Source: Dichotomocladium elegans
Taxonomy: Eukaryota > Mucoromycota > Mucoromycetes > Mucorales > Lichtheimiaceae
NCBI GenBank assembly: GCA_025716815.1
Contig: JAIXMN010000039.1
Location: 1-64,000, forward strand
Direction of reading: 5' to 3'
Length of the DNA: 64,000 bases
Notes under the pieces: model-generated
The model's input: only the letters and a program-made list of their open reading frames with translations
What the model was told of the DNA's origin: nothing
Databases searched by the model: none
Program-made: the position numbers and the translations under genes
Part shown: piece after piece, positions 29,912 to 57,394 of the stretch
Numbering within the stretch: the first letter of the stretch is position 1
Layout: each line of letters opens with the position of its first letter

Positions 29912-30437
29912 TAACTCCACCCCATTGTCGCCTAACCCTATGCCCACGTCGGTTCATATTCTGGAAGTCCATCGATTACAAGAAACTCGGGAGCTCGCCA
30001 CACAACGTCTTCACGACAATGCCGCAAAAGACAAAGCTTGCTGGGATGCACTTATCCAGCCGCAGCAGTTCTCCATAGGTGACCACGTGCTTCTACGCCA
30101 TGAAAACAAATTGAGTCTCGAATATAATTGGAAGGGCCCCTTTCGAGTTCTCGCTTGCAACTATGACACCAACATATATAAGCTCAGTGACCTCCAAGGC
30201 CGCGGATATTCCTCCTGGGTCCACACCGATCGCCTCCGACCTATCCACACTGGTTCTCCAGTCACCCAAGACCCTTGGTATGACCCGACTGCTGCTCGAG
30301 CTGCTGAACGACGCCATCTGGAAGCTGCCGCTGCCGCCAATGCCCAGTTATCCATGTTGTCCGAGGACGACCAACCTTCTGCGGAGGGGGTATTGTTGTG
30401 TATGAATTCTGGAGCCAATCAGATCGACTTGCTGTAG
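29912..30437 (+). pseudogene. Gypsy B remnant: integrase C-terminus
   Basis: Only the C-terminal part of a Ty3/gypsy Pol remains: a helical segment (LQETRELATQRLHDNAAKDK), the GPY/F-like block SLEYNWKGPFRVL, SSWVHTDRLRPIH and the tail PWYDPTAARAAERRHLEAA shared with elements C, D and F. The frame runs on into the LTR, which starts at 30394 after the purine-rich GCGGAGGGGGTAT. The 5' part of the element is missing. Confidence 0.85.
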
Positions 30438-30693
30438 GGACCCAAAAAGGGGATTATTGGAGAACATCTACCCATGACTCCATCGACGTCCCTGTCGACT
30501 GCATTTATTGTACGGGTTGCATTTATTAACCCATCTACATTTATTAATTCGTTAAGCCATGGCAATGAGTATGAAGATACCAGACTGGCCCTTCCACTTT
30601 AACTAATATAAATACCTGGGTGTTTGTCGTAAATAAAACGGGGACACTACTAAATTAATTATCACTGCCCATCACTATCGCTGGCTAAGGTTT
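30394..30693 (+). mobile_element. Gypsy B 3' LTR, left portion
   Basis: Starts TGTTGTG after a polypurine tract; TATA-like TATAAATA near 30609. It is interrupted at 30693 by gypsy A and resumes at 36404-36424 and 36817-36825 (end CGACA). The reassembled LTR is about 326 bp. Confidence 0.8.
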
Positions 30694-31169
30694 TGTCATG
30701 ATTCAACCCGACGTGCCTGCCACAACACACGCAACAACGATCGACACTGCGATTCCAATACGCACCAAATACCCACTCCACCTGTTCTTTACATACATAC
30801 TCCTTCTTCTCTTATTAAGTACATTATCTATACCTTACTCACGATCCAGAACACAATATATATATCCACCCTATCCTTAGTCAAAATAAAATCAATCAGT
30901 TATCTTGTTTCTTCGTTTCCATACGAATCCATCTGGTTCACCTCTTGTCTTGGCCTCCGTGCTTCTTGTCCCTTCCATCCTTGTATCGTTCCAATCCAGC
31001 TCGATACTTCTTCCTTCCTCTTGGCCTCCGCGCTTCTGTCTTCTTTCTCTTGTTCTATTTTCTTGTTCTGTCTTGTCTTGTTGGAAAGCGCTTAGCACCT
31101 TCCTGCCCTTTCTTCCATCTTCCTCCTATTCCAACCCAATCCCAGTAAAACCTCACCAAAACCTTTACA
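30694..31169 (+). repeat. Gypsy A 5' LTR
   Basis: 476 bp, TG...CA. AATATATATATCC near 30855 is a candidate TATA region, and pyrimidine-rich R/U5 sequence follows. Confidence 0.92.
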
Positions 31170-31330
31170 CTATAACTGATTCATTTTGTGCTACCCGCTT
31201 TCTTCTTCCCTGCATCATTGTTCTGTCAAAACCCCTTTTTGGAATCTTCCCTCCCTTTTTCATTTAATTTCTGCATTGACTTATATTAACTTCTGCACTC
31301 TTACTATCTTCACTATTTATTTTTTATTTC

Positions 31331-32176
31331 ATGCCGGAATCCAACACTCAGACCACTGGAGCCACCGAGGTTACCGCCGCCATGGCAAACCTGTCATTAG
31401 CTGCGAATCAACTCACTGTGCCTGTCAACCAGCCAATGTTTTTTACGGGTAAGTCATCTGACATCCGCAGGTTCCTGTCACAGGTGAATCTGTACATCCA
31501 TGCAAACCCGCAACGCTTCACGTCCGACTTTGCGAAGGTCTCGTTTATGATCTCGTACCTGTCGGAGGTAGCATTCGAATGGGCCCAACCGTATCTCGAA
31601 AACCTTGGCACAGACGACATGGACCCATGCTTGAACAACTTCGCCGAATTCCTGGCAACATTCCGTCTTGCATTTGGTGAGGCTAACGAGCAGGAGGCTC
31701 TAGAACGTGAGCTCCTTACTTTGCGCCAGGGCTCCAAGGCAGCCAACGAGCACGCTGCCACCTTCCGCCGCCTTGCCATGCGCTCCGGTTTTGACGTTGT
31801 TGCCTTGCGCGCCATTTTCCGTGAATCATTGTCCGATCGACTCAAGGATAGCTTGGCAACCCGCGACATGCCAAGTGATCTGTGGGAGTATGTGGGAAAG
31901 GTAATCGAGCTCGACAATCGCCTGCGCGAAAGAAACGGCGAGCGTCGCAACAACCAGCGACAGCCCAGATTTGTGCCATTCAGGGCCCCGCCACCAACCA
32001 ATAATGACGTGCAACCTATGGACCTGGACGCCGCCAAGGCTCAGTACAAGCCGCTCTCTGCTGAGGAGAAGAGCCGCCGCCGCAACCTTGGCTTGTGTAT
32101 GTACTGTGCTGCTGAGGGACACACCGCCGCCGTATGCCCTAACAAGAAGGGAAAAGGCAAATCCCAAGGGCTGTAA
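31331..32176 (+). CDS. Gypsy A Gag (capsid + one CCHC zinc knuckle)
   Basis: 281 aa, intact. A Ty3/gypsy capsid-type region lies at roughly residues 35-200 (FFTGKSSDIRRFLSQVNLYI, EWAQPYLENL), followed by a basic linker and one CCHC knuckle, CMYCAAEGHTAAVC, near the C-terminus. It would package the element RNA into particles. The start is the ATG at 31331, 162 bp after the LTR; a second ATG lies 17 codons further on. Pol follows in another frame 11 bp after the stop. Confidence 0.88.
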   Translation: MPESNTQTTGATEVTAAMANLSLAANQLTVPVNQPMFFTGKSSDIRRFLSQVNLYIHANPQRFTSDFAKVSFMISYLSEVAFEWAQPYLENLGTDDMDPCLNNFAEFLATFRLAFGEANEQEALERELLTLRQGSKAANEHAATFRRLAMRSGFDVVALRAIFRESLSDRLKDSLATRDMPSDLWEYVGKVIELDNRLRERNGERRNNQRQPRFVPFRAPPPTNNDVQPMDLDAAKAQYKPLSAEEKSRRRNLGLCMYCAAEGHTAAVCPNKKGKGKSQGL

Positions 32177-32187
32177 GAGAGTATCCC

Positions 32188-35100
32188 TTGGGTTGGCACT
32201 ATATTTTTTTCAATAAACCCACCTCTATTGAAACCAAACCTCTCGCCTCACACACTCTGTGTTCCTCGTCCTCCTGTGCACCCACAACATCTCCTCCAAT
32301 TCACATGCCTCTACAAATCCCTGTAACTTTGAAAATTGGCGACATAACACTCGACACCACAGCCATGATCGACTCGGGGTCAATGGAGAATTTTATTGAC
32401 CAGAGTTTCGTCCAGCAGCATCGATTACCACTCGCCGAGAACAGGAACCCCTTACATGTCCGCACCGTCGATGGCCGTTCAATATTGTCCGGTCTTATAA
32501 TGCATAATTGCCCAGCACACATGGCTAGTGGTCAGCACCAAGAACACGTCGCCTTACATGTAACCTCCTTGGGCCAATACTCAGTCATCCTTGGTATGCC
32601 TTGGTTACAGAAACACAACCCAACAATCAATTGGCATACAGGGCGAGTCCTCTTTGTCTCTGAGACATGCTCAGAATCCTGTCTACCAGCAGCCCCAGCT
32701 GTTCAAGCAATGTCACCACCGACCTCAGCAACAAGCGCATCAGTGGCCAACATCCAACTAGTGGGTGCCACCACGATGAAGAAGCTAATCGAGCAAGAAC
32801 ACGAAGCCTTTGCCCTCCGACTTGATCTTAAAGGCTGCCCCATGACGATTGCCAGCCTGACTAGTAGCGAGCCAATATCCACTACGCCTAGTATTCCCAG
32901 GAAGTATAACGCATTTTCTGACGTTTTCGATGAAGAACAGGCAAACTCCCTACCAAGTCGTCGACCTGGAGTAGATCATACTATCACACTCACCGAAGGA
33001 AGCCAGTACCATATGGACCGATCTATTCTCTGTCGCAGGAAGAGCTCGACGTTCTGGCTGACTACATCAAGACTAACCTCGAGAATGGCATCATCAGCCC
33101 ATCAACGAGTCCAGCTGGCGCGCCGATCTTGTTTGTCAAGAAGAAAGACGGGTCGCTTCGTCTTTGCGCCGACTATCGAGGATTAAACAAGATCACAGTC
33201 AAGAATCGCTACCCCTTGCCACTTATTAACGAGATGCTAGATCGATTATCCTCCGCCACAATCTTCACTAAGCTTGATATCCGCAACGCCTACCATCGTA
33301 TCCGCATTGCTGAGGGTGATGAGTGGAAAACGGCCTTCCGCACACGATATGGCCACTTCCAGTATAACGTAATGCCATTCGGTCTGACCAATGCACCAGC
33401 TTCATTCCAGGCTCTGATTAATGATGTTCTCCGTGAATATCTTGATCATTTCGTTGTGGTCTACCTCGACGACATCCTAATATTCAGCGACGATCAGGAA
33501 AAACACGACAAGCATGTCCAACTTGTTCTCGAGAAGCTCCGTATTGCTGGGTTATACGCCAAAGCCGAGAAGTGCGAATTCGACGTCAGTGAGGTTGAAT
33601 TTTTGGGTTTTCGCGTAGGTCGCTCCGGCGTCGCCATGGATCCAGCTAAAGTCGCCTGCGTCATTGACTGGCCAACGCCCCAAAACGCACACGACATTCA
33701 GGTCTTCCTTGGGTTTGCCAACTTCTACCGTCGCTTCATCCCGGATTACTCACGCATTGTAACCCCACTCACCTCGTTGCTCAAGAAAAATGTTGCTTTT
33801 GCATGGTCTACTGTCCAGGAACATGCGTTCAAAACCCTCAAACAACGCTTCACGTCCGCGCCGATTTTACAGCATTTTAACCCGTATGCCCGGTATTCAT
33901 AGAAACAGATGCCTCCGATTTTGCTCTAGCCGGCGTCCTGAACCAAAAAGGCCCCGATGGTAACCTTCATCCTGTCGCATTCCATAGCCGGAAACTCCAC
34001 CCTGCCGAAGTCAACTACGATATATTTGACAAAGAGCTGCTCGCGATTATTGACAGTTTCCGGATGTGGCGCCACTATGTCCAAGGCGCGCGCCACCCTG
34101 TCACTGTGTACACAGATCACAAAAATCTCGAGCACTTCTTGGAGTTGAAAGGCCCAATGTTGAGTCGCCGACACGCTCGTTGGGCTCAATTACTTAGCCA
34201 GATCGACGATCTCCAGATCACGTATCGTCCAGGCTCAAAGAATCCAAAGGCCGATGCCCTCTCTCGACGCTCTGACATGGCCTTTCTGAAGGGGGAGGGC
34301 AGCAGCAAGCAACCAGTCCAGTCAGTCTTCAAGCCGGGTCAAATATCACTCGGCGCTCTCTCTAGTTGCCCCATGGATGTCATGCTGCAAGACAAGATCC
34401 GTGATGGCTACGAATCCGACTCCAAATGTGCACGACTGATCGACCTGACCCGACACCCCCTGAGCATCCCACCACGCCTCCGCCAACAGATGGAGCAATA
34501 TAGCTTTGACAGTGACTCTGGTTTTCTTCTCCGGGATGGTCGCGTATATGTCCCCGATAACAACGATATCAAGCTCCACTTGCTGCGCACCCACCATGAT
34601 ATCCGGACAGCAGGGCATTTCGGTCGTGCAAAGACGTGTGAACTCTTGTCTCGGTCGTTCTACTGGCCTGGCATGCGTCGCTTCATCAATCGCTACGTGT
34701 CCAATTGTGCAGTATGCAAGCGTGCTAAACCATCTCACCAGGCACCTGTCGGCTATCTTAAGCCCCTGCCAATTCCACCACGGCCTTGGTCTTCCATCAG
34801 CATGGATTTCATCACCGGCTACCACGGTCGCTGGGATACAATTCCATATGGGTTGTAGTCGATCGACTTACGAAAATGGCACACTTCATCCCGTGCTCGG
34901 ACACCATTACTGCCAAGGATCTCGCCAAACTCTTCATCAAAGAGGTTTTCCGCCTCCATGGCCTCCCTGATGATATTGTATCAGACCGCGGTGCAGTATT
35001 CACATCGAGTTTTTGGCGCTCCCTTCTCAGACTTTTGGGTATCAAGGCGAATATGTCCACAGCATTTCACCCGCAGACAGATGGACAAACAGAACGCACT

Positions 35101-35910
35101 AATTCAATCCTCGAACAGTATCTACGAATATACGTCAATTACCAGCAGGATGACTGGTGTTCACTCCTGCCTATGGCCGAGTTCACCTACAATAACACCA
35201 AGCAAATGAGCACTCAGCATACGCCGTTCGAGTCAACTTTTGGATTCCACCCTCGCTTCTCCTTGCTCCCTGCTCCTGTCGGTTCCAGTATCTCAGCTTC
35301 TTCTGAAGAGTTCTGCCAGAATTTACGCGACCTCCACGAAACAATCAAGGACGAGATTCGCCTAGCACAGCAGCAACAGGCAGCATACTATAATGAACAT
35401 CGTCGGGCCACTCCAGAATTCAAGACCGGCGATTTAGTCTTTCTTTCAGCTAAAAACATCAAGTCTTCACGCCCCTCTGCCAAGTTGGACCATCGACACC
35501 TCGGGCCGTTCAAAATCCTTGCTCCAGTAGGTACACATGCATACAGGCTGGAACTCCCTGCAACCATGAAGGTACATCCAGTGTTCCATGTTAGCCTGCT
35601 GTCACCAAGTCAAAATCCCACGTTGCCCGACATTCCAAACCGCGTGCCTGAACCGTTGCCGCCGATCGAAGTGCAAGGCGAAGAACACTACGAGGTTAGG
35701 GAGATACTAGACAGTCGCATTCGTCACCGGCGTCTTGAATATTTGGTGGCGTGGAAAGGGTATGATGACCCGTCGGAAAACACCTGGGAGCCTTCTGAAA
35801 ATCTTTGGAATGCAGCCGACGCAGTGCGTGACTTCCACCTTCGTTTTCCCACGAAGCCTGCGCCTCAGCCATCTCGGGACTCTCACCGCTCTCGTATGCC
35901 TCGACCCTAG
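32188..35910 (+). pseudogene. Gypsy A Pol (PR-RT-RH-IN-chromodomain), three frameshifts
   Basis: Protease TAMIDSGSMENFID; RT from about 33115 with LRLCADYRGLNKI, FGLTNAPASFQ and VVVYLDDILIF; RNase H with ETDASDFALAG and TDHKNLEHF; integrase with the HHCC finger (HHDIRTAGHFG ... CAVCKRA), [10 protein letters not shown] and [12 protein letters not shown] region; and a C-terminal chromodomain ([19 protein letters not shown]) that in this clade reads histone marks. Single-base frameshifts at about 33010, 33895 and 34840 break the frame; the residues on either side fit the family once the frame is changed. The catalytic residues themselves look intact. Confidence 0.9.
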
Positions 35911-35922
35911 ACGGGGAGGTAA

Positions 35923-36398
35923 TGTCATGATCCAACCCGACGTGCCTGCCACAACACACGCAGCAACGATCAACACTGCGATTCCAATACGCACCAAATA
36001 CCCACTCCACCTGTTCTTTACATACATACTCCTTCTTCTCTTATTAAGTACATTATCTATACCTTACTCACGATCCAGAACACAATATATATATCCACCC
36101 TATCCTTAGTCAAAATAAAATCAATCAGTTATCTTGTTTCTTCGTTTCCATACGAATCCATCTGGTTCACCTCTTGTCTTGGCCTCCGTGCTTCTTGTCC
36201 CTTCCATCCTTGTATCGTTCCAATCCAGCTCGATACTTCTTCCTTCCTCTTGGCCTCCGCGCTTCTGTCTTCTTTCTCTTGTTCTATTTTCTTGTTCTGT
36301 CTTGTCTTGTTGGAAAGCGCTTAGCACCTTCCTGCCCTTTCTTCCATCTTCCTCCTATTCCAACCCAATCCCAGTAAAACCTCACCAAAACCTTTACA
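35923..36398 (+). repeat. Gypsy A 3' LTR
   Basis: 476 bp, preceded by the polypurine tract ACGGGGAGGTAA. It is followed by the second GGTTT copy. Confidence 0.92.
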
Positions 36399-36403
36399 GG
36401 TTT

Positions 36404-36424: not shown

Positions 36425-36816
36425 TGTCGTAGTCCAATTACTCGGTTATTATAATTCCCGGCCGTGTCTATTTTTGTACTGATCCCTGACGTAATGCTCG
36501 TCATACTGCTTCTTTTGGATACTATGACGACATACACATCACTACTTCTTTAGATACATCGTCCGTTCCCCATTACGACATCACAATATTATATGTATAG
36601 TCAGCATTAGAAAATGAATATAAATACGCGAGTAGTTTACAGGAATAAAGAGGATCATCGATTCGTTATCATATTCCTTCGTGGTTTACATCCTCTTCGT
36701 GGTTCTCCTTTGTGGTTCTCCTTCGTGGTAATACTCTTCGTGGTTATACTCTCTCCATGGTTATACTCTCTTCGTGGTCGTCGTCGCCTGTGTTCAAACA
36801 AAAAACAAAGACGACA
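36425..36816 (+). mobile_element. Solo LTR C' (gypsy C family, 392 bp)
   Basis: Homologous to the 405-bp LTRs of gypsy C but in plus orientation: TGTCGTAG ... GACGACA. The 4-bp target duplication is GACA (36421-36424 and 36817-36820). TATA-like TATAAATA near 36620. The transcribed half carries about eight spaced copies of TCGTGGT. A solo LTR forms by recombination between the two LTRs of a full element. Confidence 0.88.
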
Positions 36817-36825: not shown

Positions 36826-36829
36826 ACAT

Positions 36830-37116
36830 TGTCGTAACACATATTACTCAACCAATCAGCGTTGCCATTTAGTTTATCCTTTTCTGAACACTTCTCCAGC
36901 AATTGTACAAACGGCCATTGTTCCTTCTTTGTAACCAACACTGACCTTTCCCTTTTCTCTCTCTTCTCCATGTATTATTATTAGATAGCAAAACAGTATA
37001 AATATCCAAACAGCTCCATGCAATAAACATCATCTATCCGTTACCCTTCTTCTTCTACTGTTACGCTTGGTCGTTGCTATTGGCTACGGTGTAACCGCCA
37101 AAATATACGCACGACA
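36830..37116 (+). repeat. Gypsy D 5' LTR
   Basis: 287 bp; TATA-like AGTATAAATATCC near 37002. It is followed by ATTGGTAGCTGATG, a primer-binding-site-like string overlapping the start codon. Confidence 0.9.
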
Positions 37117-37127
37117 ATTGGTAGCTG

Positions 37128-40100
37128 ATGAACTTCGATCTGCCGATGGACAACCCAGAACTCTATAATGACCGTTGCTCCAACTGCGGGGGCTATGGCC
37201 ATGGCGCGGATGTCTGTGTTTCCAAACTACCAAAGCGATGCTACAACTGTGGAGGCCATGGTCACGACGAATATGACTGTACGTCTGAACAAACCTTGCG
37301 ATGTTACAACTGCGGGAACGAATATCATTTTGCCTGAGATTGTATGCTACCTACATTACTGAATGAGTACCGGTTCCGACCTATTGTGCAATTACGTCGA
37401 CAAAGGGCCCAAAATCAACGCATAAATACGACATTGACACAGCGAGGGCTACAGCACGAAGAACCTTACAAATCGAAACAAGACGAACAAGTACCCAGGC
37501 TCTTAGCCGACACCAATATGGACGATTTTATTGCAATACAGTACGATGGACAACTCGATGACGATATTCAGTACTTCAACAAATTATATACTGCTAGTGA
37601 AACCAACCTACCCCTCTACGACCTACTGTGCAATGGGCGTCGGTGCGAGACCCTTTTGGACAGTGGTGCATCCGCAACTTATGTATCACCTCGTGTGGTG
37701 GAGGGTATGCCTTGCACTCGTATCACTAGCCGTCAAGTCCAGACTGCAGGTGGCCACACCCTTAGCATTACAGCAAAAGTTACCTTGACACTCGACATCG
37801 ACGGCCTAGTTCACCAGATCCCTGCATATGTACTTGACACCAAGTTCGACTTAATCCTAGGTCGCGATTGGATCAAACGCATGATGCCCATACCTGACTG
37901 GGAGCTTGACCAGTGGCGTATTTCTACCGGTAACAAAACGTATCTCTTACGTCCAAAGTATAACCGTGATATTCCCGAACTCGCATATCTCATTTCCAGC
38001 CGCCAGCTCGAGCGCTTTGAACGCGACAAACAACTCTCAGCCACTTACCTTTGCTATATCCGCTCAGAGGACAGTGAAGCTAGGGCGTCGGAAGAGAATG
38101 CGCACGTCAAGACCCTGCTCAGCGAGTATGCCGACGTATTCCAAGACAAGCTCCCAGGGTTACCGCCACAGCATGATGTTGCCCACGTCATTGATACTAG
38201 TGACGCCGCACCAATTAGCCGACCTCCCTTCAAAATGAGCCCTCGTGAGTTGGACGAATTACGCAAGCAACTCAAGGAGCTGCTTGACCTTCGACTTATC
38301 TGCCCTTCCACGTCGCCATGGGGTGCACCTGTTCTTTTCGTCCGAAAGAAGAATGGTGAAATGCATATGTGTGTCGACTATTGTGCTATTAATCGAGTGA
38401 CCCGACACAATACCCATCCACTGCCACGGGTCGATGAGTGCTTGGAGCGTCTTGGCGGAGCTAAGTATTTCTCGAGCATCGATCTTAAGAGCGGATACCA
38501 CCAGGTCCGAATTCACAACGACGATGTACCGAAGACCACATTCAATACTCGTTACGGCTCATACGAGTTCCTTGTCCTCCATTTGGCCTGACAAATGCGC
38601 CACCTACATTCCAGAAGCTGATGAACTCAGTGCTCGGTGAGTATCTCGATGATTTTGCCCTCGTATATCTCAATGATATTCTTGTATACAGCAAGACCGC
38701 CGAGGAACACCGCAAACATGTCTGTCAGATTTTGGATCGTCTCCGTTCTGCACGCCTAGTAGCTAACCCGAAGAAGTGTGAGTTTTAAAAGACCGAGCTC
38801 GAGTTCGTTGGGTACCAAGTAACGGTGCGTGGTATTCTTCCGTCACCAGCGAAGGTAAAAGCGATTCAAGACTGGCCTGTACCGAAGAATGTCCAAGAGG
38901 TGCAACAGTTTATTGGTCTTGGATCTTATTATCGACGATTCATCCGCGACTTTGCGGCTATTGCTTCTCCATTGACGGACTTGACAAAAGGTACGGGTAC
39001 GAAACAAAGAGCAATAGAATGGACACCAACATGCCAAGCCGCATTTGACTAACTCAAACGCCGTCTCGTTGATGCCCCGATCCTGCTGCCACCTAATACA
39101 GACTTACCTTTTGTGATCGAGACGGATGCCTCCGATTACGGCGTGGGCGCCGTTCTTCTTCAAGAGGGGGAGGATGGGGCGATGCACCCCATCGCGTTTG
39201 AATCCAAGAAGCTATCATCAGCCGAACGCAACTACCCGGCGCAAGAACGCGAACTGCTAGGTATTTTGCACGCATTGCGATCATGGTGCTGCTTCATCGA
39301 AGGTCGGCCATATACGATCTACTCTGACCACCTCCCTCTAAAGTACTTCTGAGAGAAAGGCACACCGACTCCTCGTTTAACCCGATGGATTGCAGAAATT
39401 GAGTTGTACGATCCAGATATACGCTATAAGCCTGGAACTGATAATCACGTACCTGACCTGTTATCGCGCCGGGAGGGTGTCACAAGTACACCCGCCGATC
39501 AAACAATGGAGCCGGAGTACCTTTATGCTGTAAAGTCCTTACAAGAGACCGACTGGCTGAAATTCTATGCAAGACCCAAAAACTCATGGCCAGCCACATA
39601 CCACGATTTACTCATTAAGCACCGAGATAAGTTTTCTGTAAACAACGATTGTGTATTTCGTAAGGTCAGAATTGGAAAAGATGTCCAAGAAGTTCGTTAT
39701 GTTCTTTTTGTTCGCTGCGCTGACCTCATACAAGAATCCCACAAGTCCTTTGGTCATGCTGGCAACAGTACACTTTATGATCTACTACGCAAGCGATACT
39801 GGTGGCCCGACATGCGAAATGACATAGCAGAGTGGATCGCTGAATGCAAGGAATGCCAACTGGCGGCTAACGCAGACAAGCACATACACCATGCGCCAAT
39901 GAAACCTCTTGAAGTCCCCCCGCCATTCTCCCATTGGCACCTCGATTTTATCGGCGAGCTTCCTACGACAGCGAATGGAAACCAGTGGATTCTCGTGGCC
40001 GTCGACTCTGCCACTAGCTGGCCTATTGCAAGATCAGTTCAAGATGCCACAGGAGAAGTTATTGCTAAGTTCCTCTACGAGGAGATTGTACTTCGTTTTG

Positions 40101-40926: not shown

Positions 40927-41204
40927 CACATATTACTCAACCAATCAGTGTTGCCATTTAGTTTATCCTTTTCTGAACACTTCTCCAGCAATTGTACAAA
41001 CGGCCATTGTTCCTTCTTTGTAACCAACACTGACCTTTCCCTTTTCTCTCTCTTCTCCATGTATTATTATTAGATAGCAAAACAGTATAAATATCCAAAC
41101 AGCTCCATGCAATAAACATCATCTATCCGTTACCCTTCTTCTTCTACTGTTACGCTTGGTCGCTGCTATTGGCTACGTGTAACCGCCAAAATATACGCAC
41201 GACA
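40919..41204 (+). repeat. Gypsy D 3' LTR
   Basis: 286 bp, preceded by the purine tract AGAGAGGGGATAT. Confidence 0.9.
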
Positions 41205-47067: not shown

Positions 47068-47078
47068 CAGCTACCAAA

Positions 47079-47487: not shown

Positions 47488-47521
47488 TCCGATCATGTGG
47501 AACCAAGGAATTGCTACGACA
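47488..47521 (-). mobile_element. Solo LTR H, second part
   Basis: Continues 41562-41768 after gypsy C and ends GCTACGACA, followed by CACT, the second copy of its target duplication. Confidence 0.7.
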
Positions 47522-47527: not shown

Positions 47528-47923
47528 TGTCGTCGCACAATATTCACATGTTCGATGAAGCATCCCTGCTGCGGCAACAAGACGTCCTTGACGTAATGCG
47601 CAGCAACTTACGCATTATACACTTTTACTACGCCATCACCACAGCTGTCATTGTAATCACCTTCATCATCATCATATCCGCAGCAATACTCTCGCACAGT
47701 TTTACCATTAGAAAATAGTATAAATATAACCCAACCTCCTTATCTAATAAAGATATCTACTCTCTCGTTTCCCATTGTCACCTTTGTGGTCTCATCCTCT
47801 TCGTGGTTCTCCTTCGTGGTAATACTCTCTTCGTGGTTATACACTCTCCGTGGTTACACTCTCTCCGTGGTTATTCTTTGTGGTCGTCTTTCTACCGAAC
47901 TCAAGCAAAAGATAAAGACGACA
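47528..47923 (+). repeat. Gypsy E 5' LTR
   Basis: 396 bp, TGTCGTCG ... GACGACA. TATA-like AGTATAAATATAACC near 47717. Spaced TCGTGGTT/CCGTGGTT motifs at about 47800-47885. TTTGGTAGCTGATG follows. Confidence 0.93.
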
Positions 47924-47934
47924 TTTGGTAGCTG

Positions 47935-48975: not shown

Positions 48976-48992
48976 AGGGAGGCTCTCCGCGC

Positions 48993-51900
48993 ATGTATCC
49001 ATCCCTTAATGTGGTTACCGAATCCGACAGAGGTCCTTCTGGCGCTACCACTTCTGGCCCCACCTCCGACCCACCTCCGGCTCAAGAATACGAATCACCA
49101 TTGATTGACCTTTCGGATGATCTTCTACTTGCAGAGGAGGAGGAGGAACAAAAGGCGTTTGAGGCAGATATGCGACACATTGAATCCTTACACTCAATAA
49201 AACACACCAGTTTACCTCTGTACAAAATGGTCTGCAATGGGAAGCCGATCGATGTGTTATTGGATAGCGGAGCATCCTCATCGTATGTCTCCCCTCAGTT
49301 GGCCGCTGGTTGCCCGGTCCGTTCTGTTTTCGGTCAAGAAGTGGAAACCGCAGGAGGTCATAAGTTCTCCATCGATCGTGCTGTGACACTGTCACTAGAT
49401 GCCGCTGGTTTTCAACACAATATATCAGCCTTTGTGTTGGACACGAAATTCGATTTGATTCTAGGACGCGACTGGATCAAACGTATGAAACCGGTACCTA
49501 ACTGGGATCAAGACACTTGGCAGTTCTCAGTCAACAACAAGCAATATGTACTTCGGCCAAGATCCCCACGTACTATGCCTGAATTAGCTTACCTCATTTC
49601 GCACCGCCAAGTCACTCGCCTGACGAAACGCAACCAAGTGGAAGAGCTATTTTTGTGCTTCTTCTCTACAGACCGGCAGGACAGACAAGACCAACCCAAT
49701 AATGACAAACTGCATCACCTCTATCAAACATACCCGGAGGTCTTCCAAGACAAGCTCCCTGGTTTACCTCCAATCCGAGACATTAACCATGTGATTGATA
49801 CAGGAGATGCCAAACCCATCAATCGCCCACCGTACAAAATGAGCCCGCTGGAACTTGATGAGTTACGCAAACAGCTTGACGAGTTACTCGCCCTAGGCCT
49901 GATCCGTCCAACCGCTTCACCTTGGGGCGCTCCAGTCCTGTTCGTTCGAAAAAAGGATGGCTCGTTACGCCTTTGTGTGGACTATCGCGCTATTAATCAA
50001 GTCACCAAGCGTAACTCGCACCCGTTACCACGTATCGATGAATGTCTCGAAAGGCTATCCAAGGCACGCTATTTCTCAACGATTGACCTGAAATCGGGTT
50101 ACCACCAACTGCGTATCCGTGAGGAGGACATCCCCAAGACCGCTTTCAATACCCGTTATGGTTCCTTTGCCTGGACTGTCCTACCGTTTGGACTGCGTAA
50201 TTCGCCACCGGTATTCCAAGCAATGCTCAATGGAGTTCTTCGCGACTGCATCGATAAGTGCTGCTTATTATATTTGGACGATATTCTCATATATAGCAAA
50301 ACCAAGCAAGATCATGACCGTGATGTCGCACAGGTATTAAGTCTGCTGCGTGATGCCAAGCTCGTTGCGAACAAAAAGAAGTGCGAATTCTACAAGACCG
50401 AACTGGAGTTCGTGGGTTTCCGAGTCTCTGCCGCTGGTATTTTACCATCACAATCGAAGGTCAAAGCGATTCAAGAATGGCCTGTCCCCACGAATGTCCA
50501 AGAAGTGCGTCAGTTTATTGGTTTGGCATCTCACTACCGTCGCTTCATTCGTGATTTCTCGTTGCTCGCCGCTCCTTTGACAGACTTAACGAAAGGCACC
50601 GGAGCGAAGAAACGTGCAATTACGTGGACCCCTGAGTGCCAAGAGGCGTTTGAGCAAGTCAAGTCCCGAATGTCAACTGCCCCGGTTCTGGTGCCGCCTG
50701 ACCCCGACAAACCCTATGTGATTGAGGTGGATAGTTCCGACTACTCTCTTGGTGGAGTCCTCTTACAAGATGGGGATGACGGTAAAATGCACCCTATTGC
50801 CTACGAGTCAAAAAAATTATCGTCTGCCGAACGCAACATGCCTGCTCAAGAACGAGAACTTTTAGCAATATTACATGCCTTGCGCACCTGGCGCTGTTTC
50901 GTCGAAGGCCGCAATTTCGTTGTCCGCACGGATCACCACCCATTAGTGTATTTCCGGTCTCGTCGCAAACCACCACCCCCACGCCTCATCCGTTGGATGG
51001 CCGAGTTAGAACTATATGACCCCGAAATACAGTACAAGAAAGGACAGGATAACATTGTTCCTGACCTGCTGTCTCGCCGAGATGGGCCGGATTGTACGCC
51101 CGCTCCAACCTCCATTGAACCCGACTACTTGTATGCTATGAAGTCCATCGAGGAGTCCGATTGGCCAAAATTTTATACGTTCGATGAGTCCAAGTGGCCA
51201 ACCATCTATAAGGACATCCTCAGCAAACATCGTGACAAGTTCGTGGTCAGAAACAACCAGATATTCCGCAAGGTCAAGATTGGATCTGAGGTTCAAGAAA
51301 TCCGGTTTGCCTTGTTCGCGCGTCGAGCCGATCTCGTCCACCATTTCCATCTTAGTTTTGGACATGCAGGCAGGGAAACCATATACGATCTTATCAAGAA
51401 GCGTTGGTGGTGGCCAAACATGAAGGACGACATTCAAGACTGGCTCCTCGACTGCCCCCAGTGTCAGCTCAGCGCCAATGCTGACCGTGGCACCCATCAT
51501 GCCCCCATGCGACCTTTAGATATTCCCCCGCCTTTTGCTCGTTGGCACCTCGACTTTGTTGGTGAGTTACCACGCACGTTGAAAGGTAATCGCTGGCTCC
51601 TTGTCGCCGTCGACTATGCCACCAATTGGACGATCGCACGCGCAGTACTGGACGCCACCGGCCAAGCTATTGCAGACTTCATCTACGAGACTATTCTCAT
51701 GCAGTTCGCAAGTCCTGTCGAAATCTGTACCGACCGTGGCAGCAATTTTATGTCCAAGGTGCTCAATTTTTACCTAGGCCGCGTTAAGGTACATCACAAG
51801 CTGACCTCTGCCTTCCATCCACGAACCAACTCCAAGGTCGAACGCACTAATGGCATTTTAAAACAAATGCTTCGAAAATATGTCAATGGCGAAATACACC

Positions 51901-52487
51901 GATGGGACGAATTCTTATCACAAGCAGTTTTCTCCAGCAACATCCGCAAACACCGAACCACTGGAGTTAGTCCCTACTTTATGGTATACGGTGTTGAACC
52001 ACGTCTTCCTGGTGATATCTTACCTCCTTCGGTTACGCACGCTTTGGAACCCGATCGATCCATAGAAAACCTGGTGAAGATCTGCAAACCTGCCCTCATC
52101 CGACTCCGAGAAGCCCGTATTGACGCTGCCGCTCGCTTAAAAGCTAACGCCGAACGTGACAAGGCCACCTGGGACTCACTTTTAAAACATCAAACTTTCG
52201 CCGTCGGTGACCACGTCCTTATGCGCCACGAGCAAAAACTGAGTCTTGAATATAACTGGAAAGGGCCATACATCATCATCGACCGTCGCTTAAACACAGA
52301 TACCTACAAAGTCAAGGACCTTAATGGCAAGGAATATGGATCGTGGGTCCATACCGATCGACTTCGTCCAATACACAACAAAGTGCCACCTACCTCGCCC
52401 TGGTTTGACCCTGTCGCCGCCCATGCTGCCGCCCGCGCTTTGGCCCAAGAACAAGGTGCTCCTGACTTGGTCGCGGACGACCAATAG
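48993..52487 (+). CDS. Gypsy E Pol (protease-RT-RNase H-integrase), intact
   Basis: 1164 aa without interruption. Protease IDVLLDSGASSSYVS (near residue 85); RT with LRLCVDYRAINQV, FGLRNSPPVFQ and CLLYLDDILIYSKT (YLDD centre); RNase H with VIEVDSSDYSLGGVLL, QERELLAILHALRTW and RTDHHPLVYF; integrase with the HHCC finger (HLSFGHAGRE ... CPQCQLSANA) and catalytic D, D, E in WHLDFVGEL, CTDRGSNFM and SKVERTNGIL; a C-terminal GPY-type module (SLEYNWKGPYIII, SWVHTDRLRPIH) and the tail PWFDPVAAHAAARALAQ. No chromodomain. All catalytic residues I can place are present. The ATG at 48993 follows the gag stop closely. Confidence 0.93.
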   Translation: MYPSLNVVTESDRGPSGATTSGPTSDPPPAQEYESPLIDLSDDLLLAEEEEEQKAFEADMRHIESLHSIKHTSLPLYKMVCNGKPIDVLLDSGASSSYVSPQLAAGCPVRSVFGQEVETAGGHKFSIDRAVTLSLDAAGFQHNISAFVLDTKFDLILGRDWIKRMKPVPNWDQDTWQFSVNNKQYVLRPRSPRTMPELAYLISHRQVTRLTKRNQVEELFLCFFSTDRQDRQDQPNNDKLHHLYQTYPEVFQDKLPGLPPIRDINHVIDTGDAKPINRPPYKMSPLELDELRKQLDELLALGLIRPTASPWGAPVLFVRKKDGSLRLCVDYRAINQVTKRNSHPLPRIDECLERLSKARYFSTIDLKSGYHQLRIREEDIPKTAFNTRYGSFAWTVLPFGLRNSPPVFQAMLNGVLRDCIDKCCLLYLDDILIYSKTKQDHDRDVAQVLSLLRDAKLVANKKKCEFYKTELEFVGFRVSAAGILPSQSKVKAIQEWPVPTNVQEVRQFIGLASHYRRFIRDFSLLAAPLTDLTKGTGAKKRAITWTPECQEAFEQVKSRMSTAPVLVPPDPDKPYVIEVDSSDYSLGGVLLQDGDDGKMHPIAYESKKLSSAERNMPAQERELLAILHALRTWRCFVEGRNFVVRTDHHPLVYFRSRRKPPPPRLIRWMAELELYDPEIQYKKGQDNIVPDLLSRRDGPDCTPAPTSIEPDYLYAMKSIEESDWPKFYTFDESKWPTIYKDILSKHRDKFVVRNNQIFRKVKIGSEVQEIRFALFARRADLVHHFHLSFGHAGRETIYDLIKKRWWWPNMKDDIQDWLLDCPQCQLSANADRGTHHAPMRPLDIPPPFARWHLDFVGELPRTLKGNRWLLVAVDYATNWTIARAVLDATGQAIADFIYETILMQFASPVEICTDRGSNFMSKVLNFYLGRVKVHHKLTSAFHPRTNSKVERTNGILKQMLRKYVNGEIHRWDEFLSQAVFSSNIRKHRTTGVSPYFMVYGVEPRLPGDILPPSVTHALEPDRSIENLVKICKPALIRLREARIDAAARLKANAERDKATWDSLLKHQTFAVGDHVLMRHEQKLSLEYNWKGPYIIIDRRLNTDTYKVKDLNGKEYGSWVHTDRLRPIHNKVPPTSPWFDPVAAHAAARALAQEQGAPDLVADDQ

Positions 52488-52490
52488 TTT

Positions 52491-52503
52491 GGAGGGGGGG
52501 TAA
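52491..52503 (+). promoter_or_regulatory. Polypurine tract of gypsy E
   Basis: GGAGGGGGGGTAA directly before the 3' LTR, the expected primer site for plus-strand DNA synthesis. Equivalent purine runs precede the 3' LTRs of A, B, C, D and F. Confidence 0.75.
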
Positions 52504-52895
52504 TGTCGTCGCACAATATTCACATGTTCGATGAAGCATCCCTGCTGTGGCAACAAGACGTCCTTGACGTAATGCGCAGCAACTTACGCATTATACACTT
52601 TTACTACGCCATCACCGCAGCTGTCATTGTAATCACCTTCATCATCATCATATCCGCAGCAATACTCTCGCACAGTTTTACCATTAGAAAATAGTATAAA
52701 TATAACCCAACCTCCTTATCTAATAAAGATATCTACTCTCTCGTTTCCCATTGTCACCTTTGTGGTCTCATCCTCTTCGTGGTTCTCCTTCGTGGTAATA
52801 CTCTCTTCGTGGTTATACACTCTCCGTGGTTACACTCTCTCTGTGGTTATTCTTTGTGGTCGTCTTTCTACCGAACTCAAGCAAAAGATAAAGAC
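52504..52895 (+). repeat. Gypsy E 3' LTR, main part
   Basis: Matches 47528-47919 with about three substitutions. The last bases (GACA) lie at 57294-57297 beyond gypsy F; AGAC at 52892-52895 and 57290-57293 is the duplication made by F. Confidence 0.93.
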
Positions 52896-53190
52896 TGTCG
52901 TAGCACATATTGCTCGACCAATCAACGTCATTCATTATTTTATCCTTTTCTGTCTTCTTCCCCAGTGAAAGCACAGCCGGTCGTAATTCCCTCTTTGGAC
53001 GCATCGCCGAATGCCTTTTCTCTCTTGTCTCCATATATTATTATTAGATATCAAAATAGTATAAATATCCAAGTAGTCCCTATACAATAAAGATCATCTA
53101 TCTATCTATCTGCGACTCTTATTCTCCCCACTGTTACTCTTGCGTCGTTGCTATTGGCCACGGTGTAACCGCCAAAATACAAGCACGACA
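52896..53190 (+). repeat. Gypsy F 5' LTR
   Basis: 295 bp, TGTCGTAGC ... GCACGACA. TATA-like AGTATAAATATCC near 53058, (CTAT)n run at about 53097-53111. Confidence 0.93.
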
Positions 53191-53201
53191 ATTGGTAGCT
53201 G

Positions 53202-56200
53202 ATGAACTTCGATTCCCCGATGGACGACCAAGAACCGTACAATAACTACTGTCGCAATTGTGGAGGCTGCGGTCACGATGAAGATATCTGTACTTCCGAG
53301 ATCCCAGATCGTTGTTACAACTGTGGAGGACATGGTCACGATGAATATGCCTGCACTTCCGAAAGAATGTCACGATGTTATAACTGTGGTAATGAATACC
53401 ATTTTGCCCGGAATTGCATGTTGCCGACACTGCCAAACGCGTACCGATTTCGACCGATAGTAAAGCGACATCAACGAGAAAAACGACAAAGACACAAACA
53501 TACAACATTACAGCGACATGTTATACAACAAGACAACCAAGACACGAACACGCAATATGAAGAACTATCCGAAAATCTAATCGACATCGACATGGACGAT
53601 TTTACTGCGACACAGTACGAGGGACAACTCGACGACGACGTACACTACCTTGACAAATTATACACCGATAATGAAACCGACCTACCACTTTATGACTTGC
53701 TATGTAACGGACGCATGTGTGAGACCCTTTTGGACAGTGGCGCATCCGCGACATATGTGTCACCCCATATTGTAGAAGGCTTACCACGCACACGTGTCAC
53801 TAGTCGCCAAGTCCAAACCGCCGGCGGGCACATTCTCAGTATCACAGCAAAAGTCACCTTGATGCTCGACATTGATGGCCTTATCCACCAGGTCCCTGCG
53901 TATATCCTTGACACCAAATTCGACTTAATCCTCGGCCGTGATTGGATAAAACGCATGAAGCCCGTGCCTGACTGGGAACTTGACCAGTGGCATATTGTCC
54001 ATAACGACGTAATGCATGTTTTACGTCCTAAGTACAACCGTGTCATCCCAGATCTTGCCTACCTGATTTCCAACCGCCAGCTCGAGCGTTTTGAACGTGA
54101 CCGTCACATCGCTTCCATGTATCTCTGCCTTGTTCGACCAGAGGATGTTCCTTCTGGAGCATCGGAGGATGATGTTCACGTCAAGCCCTTGCTCACAGAG
54201 TATGCTGATGTATTTCGCGACAAGCTCCCAGGACTACCGCCTCAGCGCGATGTTTACCATGTCATTGATACTGGTGATGCTGCACCCATCAGTCGACCGC
54301 CCTTCAAGATGAGCCCTCGTGAGTTGGATGAATTGCGAAAACAACTAAAAGAGTTACTCGACCTCCGCCTCATCCGGCCGTCCACATCTCCATGGGGTGC
54401 CCCTGTACTTTTCGTCCGCAAAAAGAATGGTGATATGCGTATGTGCGTAGACTATCGTGTGATCAATCGGGTGACGCGACGAAATACACATCCGTTGCCG
54501 CGTATCGATGAATGCCTGGAACGCCTCGGTGGAGCAAAGTATTTCTCAAGTATCGACCTCAAAAGTGGTTACCACCAAGTAAGGATTCATGAAGATGATG
54601 TACCGAAAACCGCATTCAACACTCGATATGGATCATACGAATTCCTTGTACTTCCATTTGGTCTGACAAACGCCCCACCTACGTTCCAACGATTGATGAA
54701 CTCAGTACTGGGTGAATATCTCGATAACTTTGCCCTCGTCTATCTCGATGACATCCTCGTGTACAGCAAGACTATCGAAGAACACCACATGCACGTCCGT
54801 CAGGTTTTAGAGCAACTTCGCTCTGCAAAACTGATAGCCAACCCGAAGAAGTGCGAGTTTTACAAGACCGAGCTGGAATTTGTAGGTTATCAAATAACGT
54901 CGCGTGGTATCCTGCCATCCCCGACAAAGGTGAAAGCAATTCAAGATTGGCCGATACCAAAGAATGTCCAGGAGGTGCGACAGTTCGTTGGTCTTGCTTC
55001 TTATTATCGACGATTTATCCGGGACTTCGCTGCCATTGCTGCTCCGCTAACAGACCTGACGAAGGGTACTGGCGCGAAACAAAGAGCGATCGAATGGACC
55101 CCTATATGTCAAGCCGCATTTGACCAACTCAAAAGCCGTCTCACAGATGCCCCGATCTTATTACCGCCCAATATGGACTTGCCTTTTGTGATCGAAACGG
55201 ATGCCTCGGACTACGGCGTTGGCGCCGTTCTTCTCCAAGAGGGGGAAGATGGATTAATGCATCCCATAGCATTCGAATCCAAGAAATTATCGTCCGCTGA
55301 GCGCAACTATCCAGCGCAAGAACGAGAGCTGCTGGGCATCTTGCATGCATTACGGTCATGGCGTTGTTTCATTGAAGGCCGCTCATATACGATCTACTCC
55401 GACCATCTTCCTCTCAAGTACTTCCGAGAAAAGGGTACACCAACTCCCCGTCTGACCCGATGGATTGCTGAAATAGAATTGTACGACCCTGATATCCGCT
55501 ACAAGCCTGGTGCCGAAAACAACGTCCCTGACCTGCTATCTCGCCGCGATGGTGTTACCAGTACCCCTGTCAATCACGCAATGGAACCCGAATATCTCTA
55601 TGCCGTAAAATCCTTACAAGAAACAGACTGGCCGAAATTCTATGCAAAACCAGAAGACAAATGGCCGATCACATACCGCGACTTACTCCAAAAACACCGG
55701 GACAAGTTTGTTGTGCGCAACGATTGCGTATATCGTAAGGTCAAGATTGGAAAAGATATTCACGAGGTTCGGTATGTTCTCCTTGCTCGCCGCGCCGATC
55801 TAGTGCAAGAAGCCCACAAGTCCTTTGGTCACGCAGGTAATGGTACACTATACGACCTGTTACGAAAACGTTACTGGTGGCCCGATATGCGAACCGATAT
55901 TGCCGAATGGATCACCGTATGCAAGGAATGTCAACTTGCCGCCAATGCAGATAAGCATGTGCATCACGCGCCAATGAAGCCTCTCGAAGTCCCCCCGCCG
56001 TTTTCTCGTTGGCATCTCGATTTTATCGGTGAGTTACCGACAACAGCAAATGGAAATCGATGGATCCTTGTTGCCGTCGACTCTGCCACCAACTGGCCCA
56101 TCGCAAGATCAGTTCAAGATGCTACTGGTGAAGTCATTGCTAAGTTCCTGTACGAGGAGATTGTGCTGCGCTTTGGTTGCCCGGATGAAATTGTTACCGA

Positions 56201-56957
56201 TCGAGGCGCGAATTTTATGTCACAGATCCTCGCGCACTACACCGGCCGGATCAAGATACGACATGTTTTCACCTCGGCATTCCATCCTCGAACAAATGGC
56301 AAGGCTGAAAGAACCAACGGTATTCTGAAGCAAATGATACGCAAGTATGTCAATGGGCAGATCCATCGCTGGGACGATTTTGTAGAGCCTGCAGTATTTG
56401 CAGCCCGCGTTCGCAAGCACCGGACTACGGGGTTGAGCCCATTCTATATGGTTTATGGTCAAGAACCCAAGCTGCCTGGCGACCATCTTCGACCACACAT
56501 TATCATTGCCGAGAAAGGCACTAACCTCACTGATGCCGACGCATCTAAGTCTCGAATCGAAGCGCTGCGTGAGCTACGCGCTGCCCGAGCTTCCGCTGAA
56601 GAACGTGTTCGTCTCAATGCTGCTCAAGACAAGGCTCGGTGGGATGCTGTGCTGAAGCCTCAAGTCTTCTCTGTGGGTGATCTTGTTCTTATGCGTCACG
56701 AAAACAAGTTTGGCCTAGAATACAACTGGAAAGGCCCATTCCGCGTACTCAAGACCAACCATGACACGGACATCTACCAGTTAGCGGATATGAACGGAAA
56801 AACTTACAACTCGTGGGTGCACACAGATCGTCTTCGGCCCATTGCTATGCGAAATGGTACCACACCCACCGACCCATGGTATGACCCAACTGCTGCTCGC
56901 GCCGCAGAGCGTCGCCACCTTGAAGCCGCAGCCGAAGCCCGCGCACAATTGTCATAG
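53202..56957 (+). CDS. Gypsy F polyprotein: three zinc knuckles + protease-RT-RNase H-integrase, no capsid
   Basis: 1251 aa, uninterrupted. It begins almost at once with three CCHC knuckles in a row (CRNCGGCGHDEDIC, CYNCGGHGHDEYAC, CYNCGNEYHFARNC, residues about 11-75), then a linker, protease [13 protein letters not shown] (about 170), RT ([35 protein letters not shown]), RNase H (ETDASDYGVGAVLL, YSDHLPLKYF), integrase (HKSFGHAGNG ... CKECQLAANA; LDFIGELPTT, VTDRGANFM, GKAERTNGIL), GPY-type module (GLEYNWKGPFRVL, SWVHTDRLRPI) and the tail PWYDPTAARAAERRHLEAA. Normal Ty3/gypsy elements encode matrix/capsid sequence before the knuckles; here the ATG is 11 nt after the LTR, so none is possible. 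It presumably needs Gag from another element; that is inference. Confidence 0.94.
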   Translation: MNFDSPMDDQEPYNNYCRNCGGCGHDEDICTSEIPDRCYNCGGHGHDEYACTSERMSRCYNCGNEYHFARNCMLPTLPNAYRFRPIVKRHQREKRQRHKHTTLQRHVIQQDNQDTNTQYEELSENLIDIDMDDFTATQYEGQLDDDVHYLDKLYTDNETDLPLYDLLCNGRMCETLLDSGASATYVSPHIVEGLPRTRVTSRQVQTAGGHILSITAKVTLMLDIDGLIHQVPAYILDTKFDLILGRDWIKRMKPVPDWELDQWHIVHNDVMHVLRPKYNRVIPDLAYLISNRQLERFERDRHIASMYLCLVRPEDVPSGASEDDVHVKPLLTEYADVFRDKLPGLPPQRDVYHVIDTGDAAPISRPPFKMSPRELDELRKQLKELLDLRLIRPSTSPWGAPVLFVRKKNGDMRMCVDYRVINRVTRRNTHPLPRIDECLERLGGAKYFSSIDLKSGYHQVRIHEDDVPKTAFNTRYGSYEFLVLPFGLTNAPPTFQRLMNSVLGEYLDNFALVYLDDILVYSKTIEEHHMHVRQVLEQLRSAKLIANPKKCEFYKTELEFVGYQITSRGILPSPTKVKAIQDWPIPKNVQEVRQFVGLASYYRRFIRDFAAIAAPLTDLTKGTGAKQRAIEWTPICQAAFDQLKSRLTDAPILLPPNMDLPFVIETDASDYGVGAVLLQEGEDGLMHPIAFESKKLSSAERNYPAQERELLGILHALRSWRCFIEGRSYTIYSDHLPLKYFREKGTPTPRLTRWIAEIELYDPDIRYKPGAENNVPDLLSRRDGVTSTPVNHAMEPEYLYAVKSLQETDWPKFYAKPEDKWPITYRDLLQKHRDKFVVRNDCVYRKVKIGKDIHEVRYVLLARRADLVQEAHKSFGHAGNGTLYDLLRKRYWWPDMRTDIAEWITVCKECQLAANADKHVHHAPMKPLEVPPPFSRWHLDFIGELPTTANGNRWILVAVDSATNWPIARSVQDATGEVIAKFLYEEIVLRFGCPDEIVTDRGANFMSQILAHYTGRIKIRHVFTSAFHPRTNGKAERTNGILKQMIRKYVNGQIHRWDDFVEPAVFAARVRKHRTTGLSPFYMVYGQEPKLPGDHLRPHIIIAEKGTNLTDADASKSRIEALRELRAARASAEERVRLNAAQDKARWDAVLKPQVFSVGDLVLMRHENKFGLEYNWKGPFRVLKTNHDTDIYQLADMNGKTYNSWVHTDRLRPIAMRNGTTPTDPWYDPTAARAAERRHLEAAAEARAQLS

Positions 56958-56994
56958 TTGTTCGAGGACGACCAACATTCTGAGGAGGGGATAT

Positions 56995-57289
56995 TGTCGT
57001 AGCACATATTGCTCGACCAATCAACGTCATTCATTATTTTATCCTTTTCTGTCTTCTTCCCCAGTGAAAGCACAGCCGGTCGTAATTCCCTCTTTGGACG
57101 CATCGCCGAATGCCTTTTCTATCTTGTCTCCATATATTATTATTAGATATCAAAATAGTATAAATATCCAAGTAGTCCCTATACAATAAAGATCATCTAT
57201 CTATCTATCTGCGACTCTTATTCTCCCCACTGTTACTCTTGCGTCGTTGCTATTGGCCACGGTGTAACCGCCAAAATACAAGCACGACA
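56995..57289 (+). repeat. Gypsy F 3' LTR
   Basis: 295 bp, preceded by GAGGAGGGGATAT. It is followed by the second AGAC. Confidence 0.93.
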
Positions 57290-57313
57290 AGACGACACAC
57301 TAAACAAAATAGG

Positions 57314-57317
57314 AAAA
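57314..57317 (-). terminator. Pol III terminator of the tRNA gene
   Basis: TTTT on the minus strand, 4 nt past the discriminator base of the tRNA; a second TTTT lies 4 nt further on (57306-57309). The LTR stack begins about 16 bp beyond the first T-run. Confidence 0.75.
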
Positions 57318-57321
57318 GGGA

Positions 57322-57394
57322 GGGGTCAACCGGGATTTGAACCCGGGACCTCACGCATCCGAAGCGTGAATGATAGCCACTACACCATTGACCC
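57322..57394 (-). tRNA. tRNA, anticodon CGG (proline by the code)
   Basis: 73 nt without an intron. Acceptor stem GGGTCAA/TTGACCC, 7 bp. The A box TGGTGTAGTGG and B box GGTTCAAATCC match the Pol III promoter consensus. Anticodon stem CACGC/GCGTG with loop TTCGGAT gives anticodon CGG; T stem CCGGG/CCCGG. The D stem is weak (3 pairs). Position 37 is A, where tRNA-Pro usually has G, so the identity is less certain than the tRNA call itself. CCA is not encoded, as usual in eukaryotes. Confidence 0.88.

Follow-up and report, generated by a model that had tools for sequence, protein, structure and literature searches.

This locus raises the question of how several long terminal repeat (LTR) retrotransposons of the Ty3/gypsy type came to lie one inside another beside a single tRNA gene. 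The locus was found in the first 64,000 nt of contig C56 (C56:1-64000; hereafter the window) of the fungus Dichotomocladium elegans, whose genome of 39.4 Mb in 122 contigs was searched as a whole. The gene is a tRNA-Pro (anticodon CGG), and its 3' end faces the stack. Elements of families E, C, D and G, whose LTRs run TGTCGT..ACGACA, lie on the 3' side of tRNA genes, nested and with target duplications of their own, and a sister family, U3, lies on the 5' side. We consider it very probable (about 0.88) that these and other TGTCGT..ACGACA families integrate preferentially some 10-75 nt past tRNA 3' ends, nearly always beyond the first run of four T (T4), in either orientation and mostly with a 4-bp stagger, that their integrase is probably tethered at the 3' portion of these genes, and that U3 inserts upstream as Ty3 does.

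The stack beside the tRNA-Pro gene

The original prediction of a tRNA at 57322-57394 was upheld by two programs, ARAGORN and Rfam (RF00005, 58.1 bits), and nothing else in the window reached the Rfam gathering score. Self-comparison of the window yielded five LTR pairs between 30688 and 57290, and three solo LTRs were delimited (Table 1). The features of Ty3/gypsy elements (Metaviridae) were present, namely LTR pairs with TG..CA ends and a target duplication, and the domain order protease, reverse transcriptase, RNase H, integrase. Nine gypsy insertions had been counted downstream of the tRNA beforehand. The stack is real, but one of the nine, chromovirus A, is of another kind and is not to be counted. 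Its Chromo and SH3_Tf2-1 domains, its LTR ends (TGTCAT..TTTACA, unlike the TGTCGT..ACGACA families) and its 5-bp duplication ruled it out as a member of the tRNA-directed families.

Matching target duplications were read at eight window insertions (ACAT, CATA, CACT, CACTAA, AGAC, GACA, AAAG and GGTTT), six of them 4 bp long, one (CACTAA) 6 bp and that of chromovirus A 5 bp. The claim that every insertion had a readable duplication held for these eight but not for remnant B, since its right end alone is visible. The ACAT, CATA, CACT and CACTAA sites and the right end of remnant B share one 20-nt stretch, ACATAAGCACTAAACAAAAT, located 24-31 nt past the 3' end of tRNA-Pro, in agreement with the single original target that had been proposed. 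The individual distances put forward earlier were likewise reproduced: 24, 24, 30, 31 and 31 nt in this stretch, and 32, 40, 62 and 62 nt for the remaining insertions, which lie inside older LTR tips, if the host LTR was then nearest to the tRNA. The right LTR tip of the family-D element resumes at 57294-57297, past the family-E insertion. The nearest element, of family E, had the fewest differences between its two LTRs (1/295), the others having 3/392, 3/405, 2 plus a gap/287 and 3/476; these counts are so small that they give no ranking of element ages. The T4 runs in the spacer that separates the tRNA from the first LTR tip are the likely RNA polymerase III (Pol III) terminator.

Duplications were also sought more widely, in 11 LTR pairs (one window pair included) and in 50 single-LTR rows, most of which come from full elements, where one flank of the LTR is an inner one. 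By script, 4-bp duplications were found outside the window in 5 of the 11 pairs (AAAG, GCCG, GTTG, CAGT and ACGG). The window pair (C56) and the C43 pair (TCGT) matched after the LTR ends had been set by eye, and the pairs on C69 and C36 were without a right LTR end. Six of the 50 single-LTR rows matched, and four were kept as solo LTRs with 4-bp duplications (TCGT, CAAA, CTGT and CCGA); L009, an inner edge, and L034, with wrongly set ends, were dropped.

Genome-wide placement and the features of the window

The window LTRs were used as genome-wide probes, with a ceiling of 40 scored candidates per probe, and copy counts obtained with them are lower bounds. For the cluster analysis, which took only pieces of at least 150 nt from families E, G, D and C, at least 109 places of merged LTR pieces were grouped into at least 59 clusters. 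A known tRNA was found within 1.2 kb of 25 of the 59 clusters (within 200 nt of 17), and all 25 were situated on the 3' side of the tRNA, supporting the earlier reading of tRNA-directed integration. As tallied by hand, the 5' LTR pointed toward the tRNA in 11 clusters and the 3' LTR in 6, with no strong bias in orientation.

The analysis was also run in the other direction, from tRNAs. Since the two LTR ends are inverted repeats of each other, TGTCGT is read in the outward direction at either one when it faces the tRNA; this terminal motif is called the tip, and tip counts include a few overlapping or serial tips. The genome was searched with the pattern GGTTCRANTCC-N19-79-TGTCGT, whose first part we presume to be the B-box consensus of tRNA genes and whose gap range limits the tip to about 8-68 nt past the tRNA end. 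The pattern gave 73 matches at 49 B boxes, and 7 when read backwards. Counted per 10 nt over 8-68 nt, the matches numbered 1, 13, 15, 22, 9, 9 and 4, with the peak of 22 at 30-39 nt; for the first tips at the 49 B boxes, the median distance from the tRNA end was 30 nt. A mirrored upstream window had 7 matches (control 4), at least two of them at tRNAs bearing an upstream-family end (L003, L074), and a far-downstream window had 7 (control 1). The peak 20-65 nt downstream that had been foreseen was found, with 73 matches in the searched range of 8-68 nt versus 7 upstream and 7 far downstream. Twenty-six of the 49 B boxes lay inside a tRNA found by ARAGORN or Rfam.

The least biased figure came from a tRNA list drawn up without LTR information, in which 63 of 1319 Rfam RF00005 candidates were scored and 59 tRNAs were listed. 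A near-downstream tip (8-68 nt) was present at 18 of the 59, when 0.9 was expected. None of the 59 had a tip in the upstream window or far downstream, and the Ty3-like placement of the TGTCGT families, an ACGACA end 5-65 nt upstream, was seen at 0 of 59. When the LTR places, a list that omits some short secondary pieces, were set against the same tRNAs, an LTR match within 8 kb was obtained at 20 of the 59, with 19 downstream and one, of chromovirus family A, upstream. A family-A LTR at C73:2359-2839 (L091) is 213 nt upstream of a tRNA-Thr, so this family is not downstream there.

Among 25 tRNA contexts in the fetched loci, 22 had at least one tip within 150 nt downstream. These contexts held 38 tip motifs versus 0.9 expected, 36 of them at 10-79 nt, a count that is not independent, since most of the contexts had been picked up by LTR searches. 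At L003, L009 and L045, serial tips were spaced 8-17 nt apart, a nesting like that of the window stack, and tRNAs for 13 amino acids were involved.

Table 1. Positions of the features discussed, in window coordinates unless a locus is named
Feature	Position	Strand	Basis or remark
tRNA-Pro (anticodon CGG), target gene	57322..57394	-	ARAGORN; Rfam RF00005 58.1 bits
24-nt spacer, tRNA 3' end to first LTR tip	57298..57321	.	sequence; two T4 runs on tRNA strand
Family-E element, closest to tRNA	52896..57289	+	LTR pair, flanks; duplication AGAC
LTR pair of family-E element	52896-53190/56995-57289		self-comparison, ends refined
Family-D element; gag 47935-48975, pol 48993-52487	47528..52895	+	flanks CACTAA
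LTR pair of family-D element	47528-47919/52504-52895		self-comparison, ends refined
CACTAA duplication, span	47528...57297
Solo LTR H, left part	41562..41768	.	duplication CACT
Solo LTR H, right tip	47488..47521	.
CACT duplication, span	41562...47521
Family-G element, inside solo LTR H	41769..47483	-	duplication AAAG
LTR pair of family-G element	41769-42173/47079-47483		self-comparison, ends refined
Solo LTR	41210..41551	.	duplication CATA
Family-C element, pol in pieces	36830..41204	+	duplication ACAT; 76.7% to family E over 4.6 kb
LTR pair of family-C element	36830-37116/40919-41204		self-comparison, ends refined
Solo LTR of family-G group, within remnant B tip	36425..36816	+	duplication GACA; inverted relative to 41769-42173
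Chromovirus A, inserted in remnant B LTR	30694..36398	+	duplication GGTTT; Chromo and SH3_Tf2-1 domains
LTR pair of chromovirus A	30694-31169/35923-36398		self-comparison, ends refined
Remnant B: integrase C-terminal end (open reading frame 29925-30437) and part of right LTR	29925..30693	+
Remnant B, further pieces	36399-36424 and 36821-36825
Upstream-family LTR relic	57411..57604	.	86.5% over 200 nt to L045 and L076 flanks
U3 repeat	L015:967-1364		LTR TGTCATGG..CCTGACA

The family-E element in the window has a single open reading frame (ORF), 53202-56957, with zinc knuckle, protease, reverse transcriptase, RNase H and integrase, and a domain search of this ORF found no capsid gag. A capsid gag was detected in the family-D and family-G elements; that of family G carries Ty3_capsid, and its pol frame is broken 3' of the integrase core. 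Judged from the one ORF read, the family-E/C group may borrow its capsid from D or G elements. Copies of this group measured about 4.1 kb between LTR starts on contigs C34, C43, C29, C79, C69, C36, C58 and C76. The named relatives of the element proteins were almost all from Mucorales (Circinella, Lichtheimia, Mucor, Rhizopus, Absidia and others), and one match carries the label of a bacterial metagenome-assembled genome.

Several further observations were made around these loci. On contig C12, four tRNA genes (558, 3612, 6990 and 10042) are arranged as mirror images of each other within 10 kb. Beside family-E LTRs on C28, the ORFs L005:1832-3289 (minus strand) and L004:2060-2800 (plus strand) gave matches to FtsJ (below cut-off) and to mRNA cap guanine-N7 methyltransferase. 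To the right of tRNA-Pro in the window, an NDC10-domain ORF, presumably Crypton-like, and a Pif1-type helicase fragment were located at 62334-63452 and 59185-60027. Positions 1-12300 of the window are satellite, with 33- and 55-bp units and higher-order repeats of about 1.79 kb that are 96-98% alike.

An upstream sister group and the integrase end

Many of the tRNAs discussed above have other repeats on their 5' side, which at unrelated loci stop about 8-13 nt short of the mature tRNA; one group of these (L065, L067, L091 and L022) reaches to 0-4 nt of the tRNA. In the window, the upstream-family relic stops 16 nt upstream of the 5' end of tRNA-Pro. The U3 repeat was found in 30 pieces genome-wide. 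A tRNA lay within 6 kb of 15 of them, and all 15 were upstream of it; the other 15 had no tRNA among the listed tRNAs. Ten pieces were 9-20 nt upstream of the tRNA, counting two whose tRNA ends were inferred from the B box and two pairs that are both LTRs of one element. The U3 integrase piece was 47-53% identical to the D and E integrases, and its best named match was from Lichtheimia corymbifera (81%).

Long ORFs that point away from the tRNA gene, on the opposite strand to it, were seen at L065:3-1409, L010:1-1383, L042:2-1438 (minus) and L022:2216-3265 (plus), with a coiled coil and an end like an RNA recognition motif when read by eye. The four may represent ORF1 of non-LTR elements that entered on the 5' side of tRNA genes; for the three compared with Pfam, no convincing family was obtained.

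The two groups differ in a motif of the integrase end, which is LE(Y/F)NW.GP(Y/F) in D and E and LEP...GP(Y/F) in U3 and U1; the C and G integrase pieces were used without their motif-bearing end. A tree was built from 121 integrase ends, of which 59 had LE(Y/F/H).W.GP(Y/F), 52 had LEP...GP(Y/F/H) and 10 had neither. One 52-member clade, with U3 and U1 in it, comprised 50 of the 52 LEP sequences, two sequences with neither motif and none with LE(Y/F/H).W.GP(Y/F). For the families of other species in this tree, the motif is known and the side is not. Tentatively, and at somewhat under even odds, an old split of one Mucorales Ty3/gypsy lineage may set the landing side, LE(Y/F)NW.GP(Y/F) elements going past the terminator and LEP...GP(Y/F) elements to the start site. 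Side would then be a property of the C-terminal barrel of an integrase without a chromodomain, the downstream group would read the Pol III termination end, and tRNA genes would commonly be flanked by both guilds.

The family-D integrase end was modelled as a long helix (125-164), a single small beta barrel and a short helix, with no second barrel. The predicted local distance difference test score (pLDDT) of the barrel was 83-91 by block, with one block at 56. The best PDB match to this model was the Ty3 integrase in complex with TFIIIB (7q5b), with a query-based TM-score of 0.36. No Pfam Chromo match was found at E<=0.1 in the D, E and G pol pieces, the frame of G being broken before its end.

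In the reading we favour, the integration site is set by distance from the tRNA gene, not by sequence. A newcomer therefore often enters the tip of the previous LTR and pushes older copies outward, so that a stack builds; position, side, duplications and nesting were all observed. The integrase C-terminal domain is probably tethered to a protein that sits on the 3' portion of the gene, for which the B-box side of TFIIIC and terminating Pol III are candidates. The U3 sister family, with its different C-terminal motif, lies 9-20 nt upstream, presumably through a tether as well.

As regards the tether, in 21 of 22 contexts a complete T4 run preceded the first tip on the way out from the tRNA. When the first tip was less than 50 nt away, T4 came early in 15 of 16 contexts versus 5.7 expected, the expected positions being drawn from only nine contexts with a distant tip or none. 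The early T4 near close tips suggests a terminator-coupled window, or selection keeping termination. It speaks for terminating or recycling Pol III as the tether, not TFIIIC at the B box, but the reference set of nine contexts is small, selection to keep termination gives the same pattern, and the first shuffle of T4 against tips was biased by the search for T4, which ran outward from the tRNA. Within the targeted reading, a Pol III tether is plausible, with a chance short of one half.

Alternatives, precedents and meaning

Several results weigh against preferential integration past tRNA 3' ends. No known tRNA was found within 1.2 kb of 34 of the 59 LTR clusters. In 15 of these, both 1.2-kb flanks were read and no tRNA was found; the remaining 19 allowed no judgement. 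Older LTR tips adjoin at least four of the 15 (C43, C74, C75 and C83), which may be outer members of stacks, and 12 of the 34 have a tRNA, or a B box with a tip, within 12 kb, the pairs being 13 downstream and 1 upstream. Moreover, 23 of the 49 B boxes were unconfirmed as tRNA genes, and the tRNA list, drawn from 63 scored candidates out of 1319, is not complete. The LTR pairs on C29 and C93 had no target duplication. 5S genes, tried as a second target, were rejected, as none of the 20 listed had an LTR match within 1 kb; the habit is thus not shown for Pol III genes generally. The support of the LEP clade was just 0.62, and the family-D model was weak overall (mean pLDDT 61.7; predicted template modelling score 0.43). 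Finally, fixed copies cannot fully separate targeting from selection.

The last point leads to the possibility that integration is broad, around genes and in intergenic space, and that purifying selection leaves copies only in harmless places past tRNA terminators. Only persisting copies are visible, the position of T4 before the first tip is also expected under selection for termination, and the 15 clusters without a tRNA on either side are in line with it. Nevertheless, the window elements whose LTRs differ at 1-3 positions keep the 24-62 nt spacing, and selection alone explains neither the opposite sides of the sister families nor the excess of near over far-downstream matches (73 vs 7), and we regard this explanation as unlikely. 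It was also considered that stacks grow by homologous recombination of complementary DNA, or by gene conversion with a resident LTR, and not by integrase, as copies do lie within older LTRs of related families. Yet each of the eight window insertions with both ends readable has its own duplication at a different nick position, and host and guest LTRs are of different families (E in D, G in H). Neither is expected from recombination, which was rejected as highly improbable.

Passive proximity would result if tRNA genes travelled with the elements. The LTRs of Helenus, a terminal-repeat retrotransposon in miniature, are tRNA-derived (PMC10886601). No such tRNA sequence was found inside the LTRs of the window by ARAGORN and Rfam, although degenerate relics could escape detection. 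Nearly identical 1.35-kb flanks (99.9%) upstream of two different tRNAs (L065 and L067) would fit such travel, but the identity stops at the tRNA boundary and the tRNAs differ. The LTRs do not include the tRNAs, the element is all that different tRNAs with dissimilar flanks have in common, and first tips range over 10-75 nt with one exception at 134. Therefore, hitch-hiking of tRNA genes was rejected as well, and carries the lowest probability of the explanations considered. Preferential integration past the tRNA 3' end is the reading we retain.

The original prediction held a downstream habit to be unusual for gypsy LTR elements, but overlooked a dictyostelid precedent: the Ty3/gypsy chromovirus Skipper-2 inserts 7-136 bp downstream of tRNA genes, and DGLT-A upstream (Spaller et al. 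2016, PMC5006619). The TGTCGT families resemble Skipper-2 in being downstream of tRNA genes, alongside an upstream group. They differ in that Skipper-2 has an amoeba host and a chromodomain, whereas the host here is a fungus and no chromodomain was detected; in addition, TTGGTAGC follows the LTR here, and the upstream group has a closely related integrase (47-53% to those of D and E). We take TTGGTAGC after the LTR to be the primer site. TRE3 of Dictyostelium is likewise found downstream of tRNA genes (PMC5006619, PMC5911963), but it is a non-LTR element with a different integration chemistry.

Ty3, Tj1, Tyl3, Tyl6, Ylt1 and Tca8 insert upstream of tRNA genes (PMC5911963, PMC4600332, PMC8632968), and the C-terminal domain of the Ty3 integrase and its vestigial chromodomain contact TFIIIB (PMC8632968). 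Ty3 shares with the families described here the insertion close to tRNA genes and a long helix before the C-terminal barrel, and it is their best solved integrase relative. It differs in side, being upstream while these families are downstream, and the family-D model is without a second barrel. In Rhizopus oryzae, Ty3/gypsy LTR elements were reported in 2009 to co-localize frequently with tRNA genes (PMC2699053). They belong to the same fungal order and element type, and the available text of that paper gives neither side nor distance. No statement on tRNA-linked elements stands in the accessible parts of a paper on Lichtheimia corymbifera (PMC4133162) or of a survey of Mucoromycotina (PMC7928374). 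No fungal report of downstream-of-tRNA placement was found in a literature search whose coverage excluded preprints and most subscription journals.

What is new here is the downstream placement in a fungus, by several families in which no chromodomain was detected, with an upstream sister group alongside. According to a 2018 review, retrotransposon insertion downstream of tRNA genes had been found only in dictyostelid genomes, unlike in budding yeast (PMC5911963). The fungal set would show that the downstream niche arose again, without a detected chromodomain. The stacks are an ordered record of insertions at one site. Furthermore, two sister groups are found on opposite sides of tRNA genes in one genome, so the long-standing question of which integrase surface picks the tRNA side becomes testable, and these opposite-side relatives let the choice of a safe place to land be compared as it occurs in nature.

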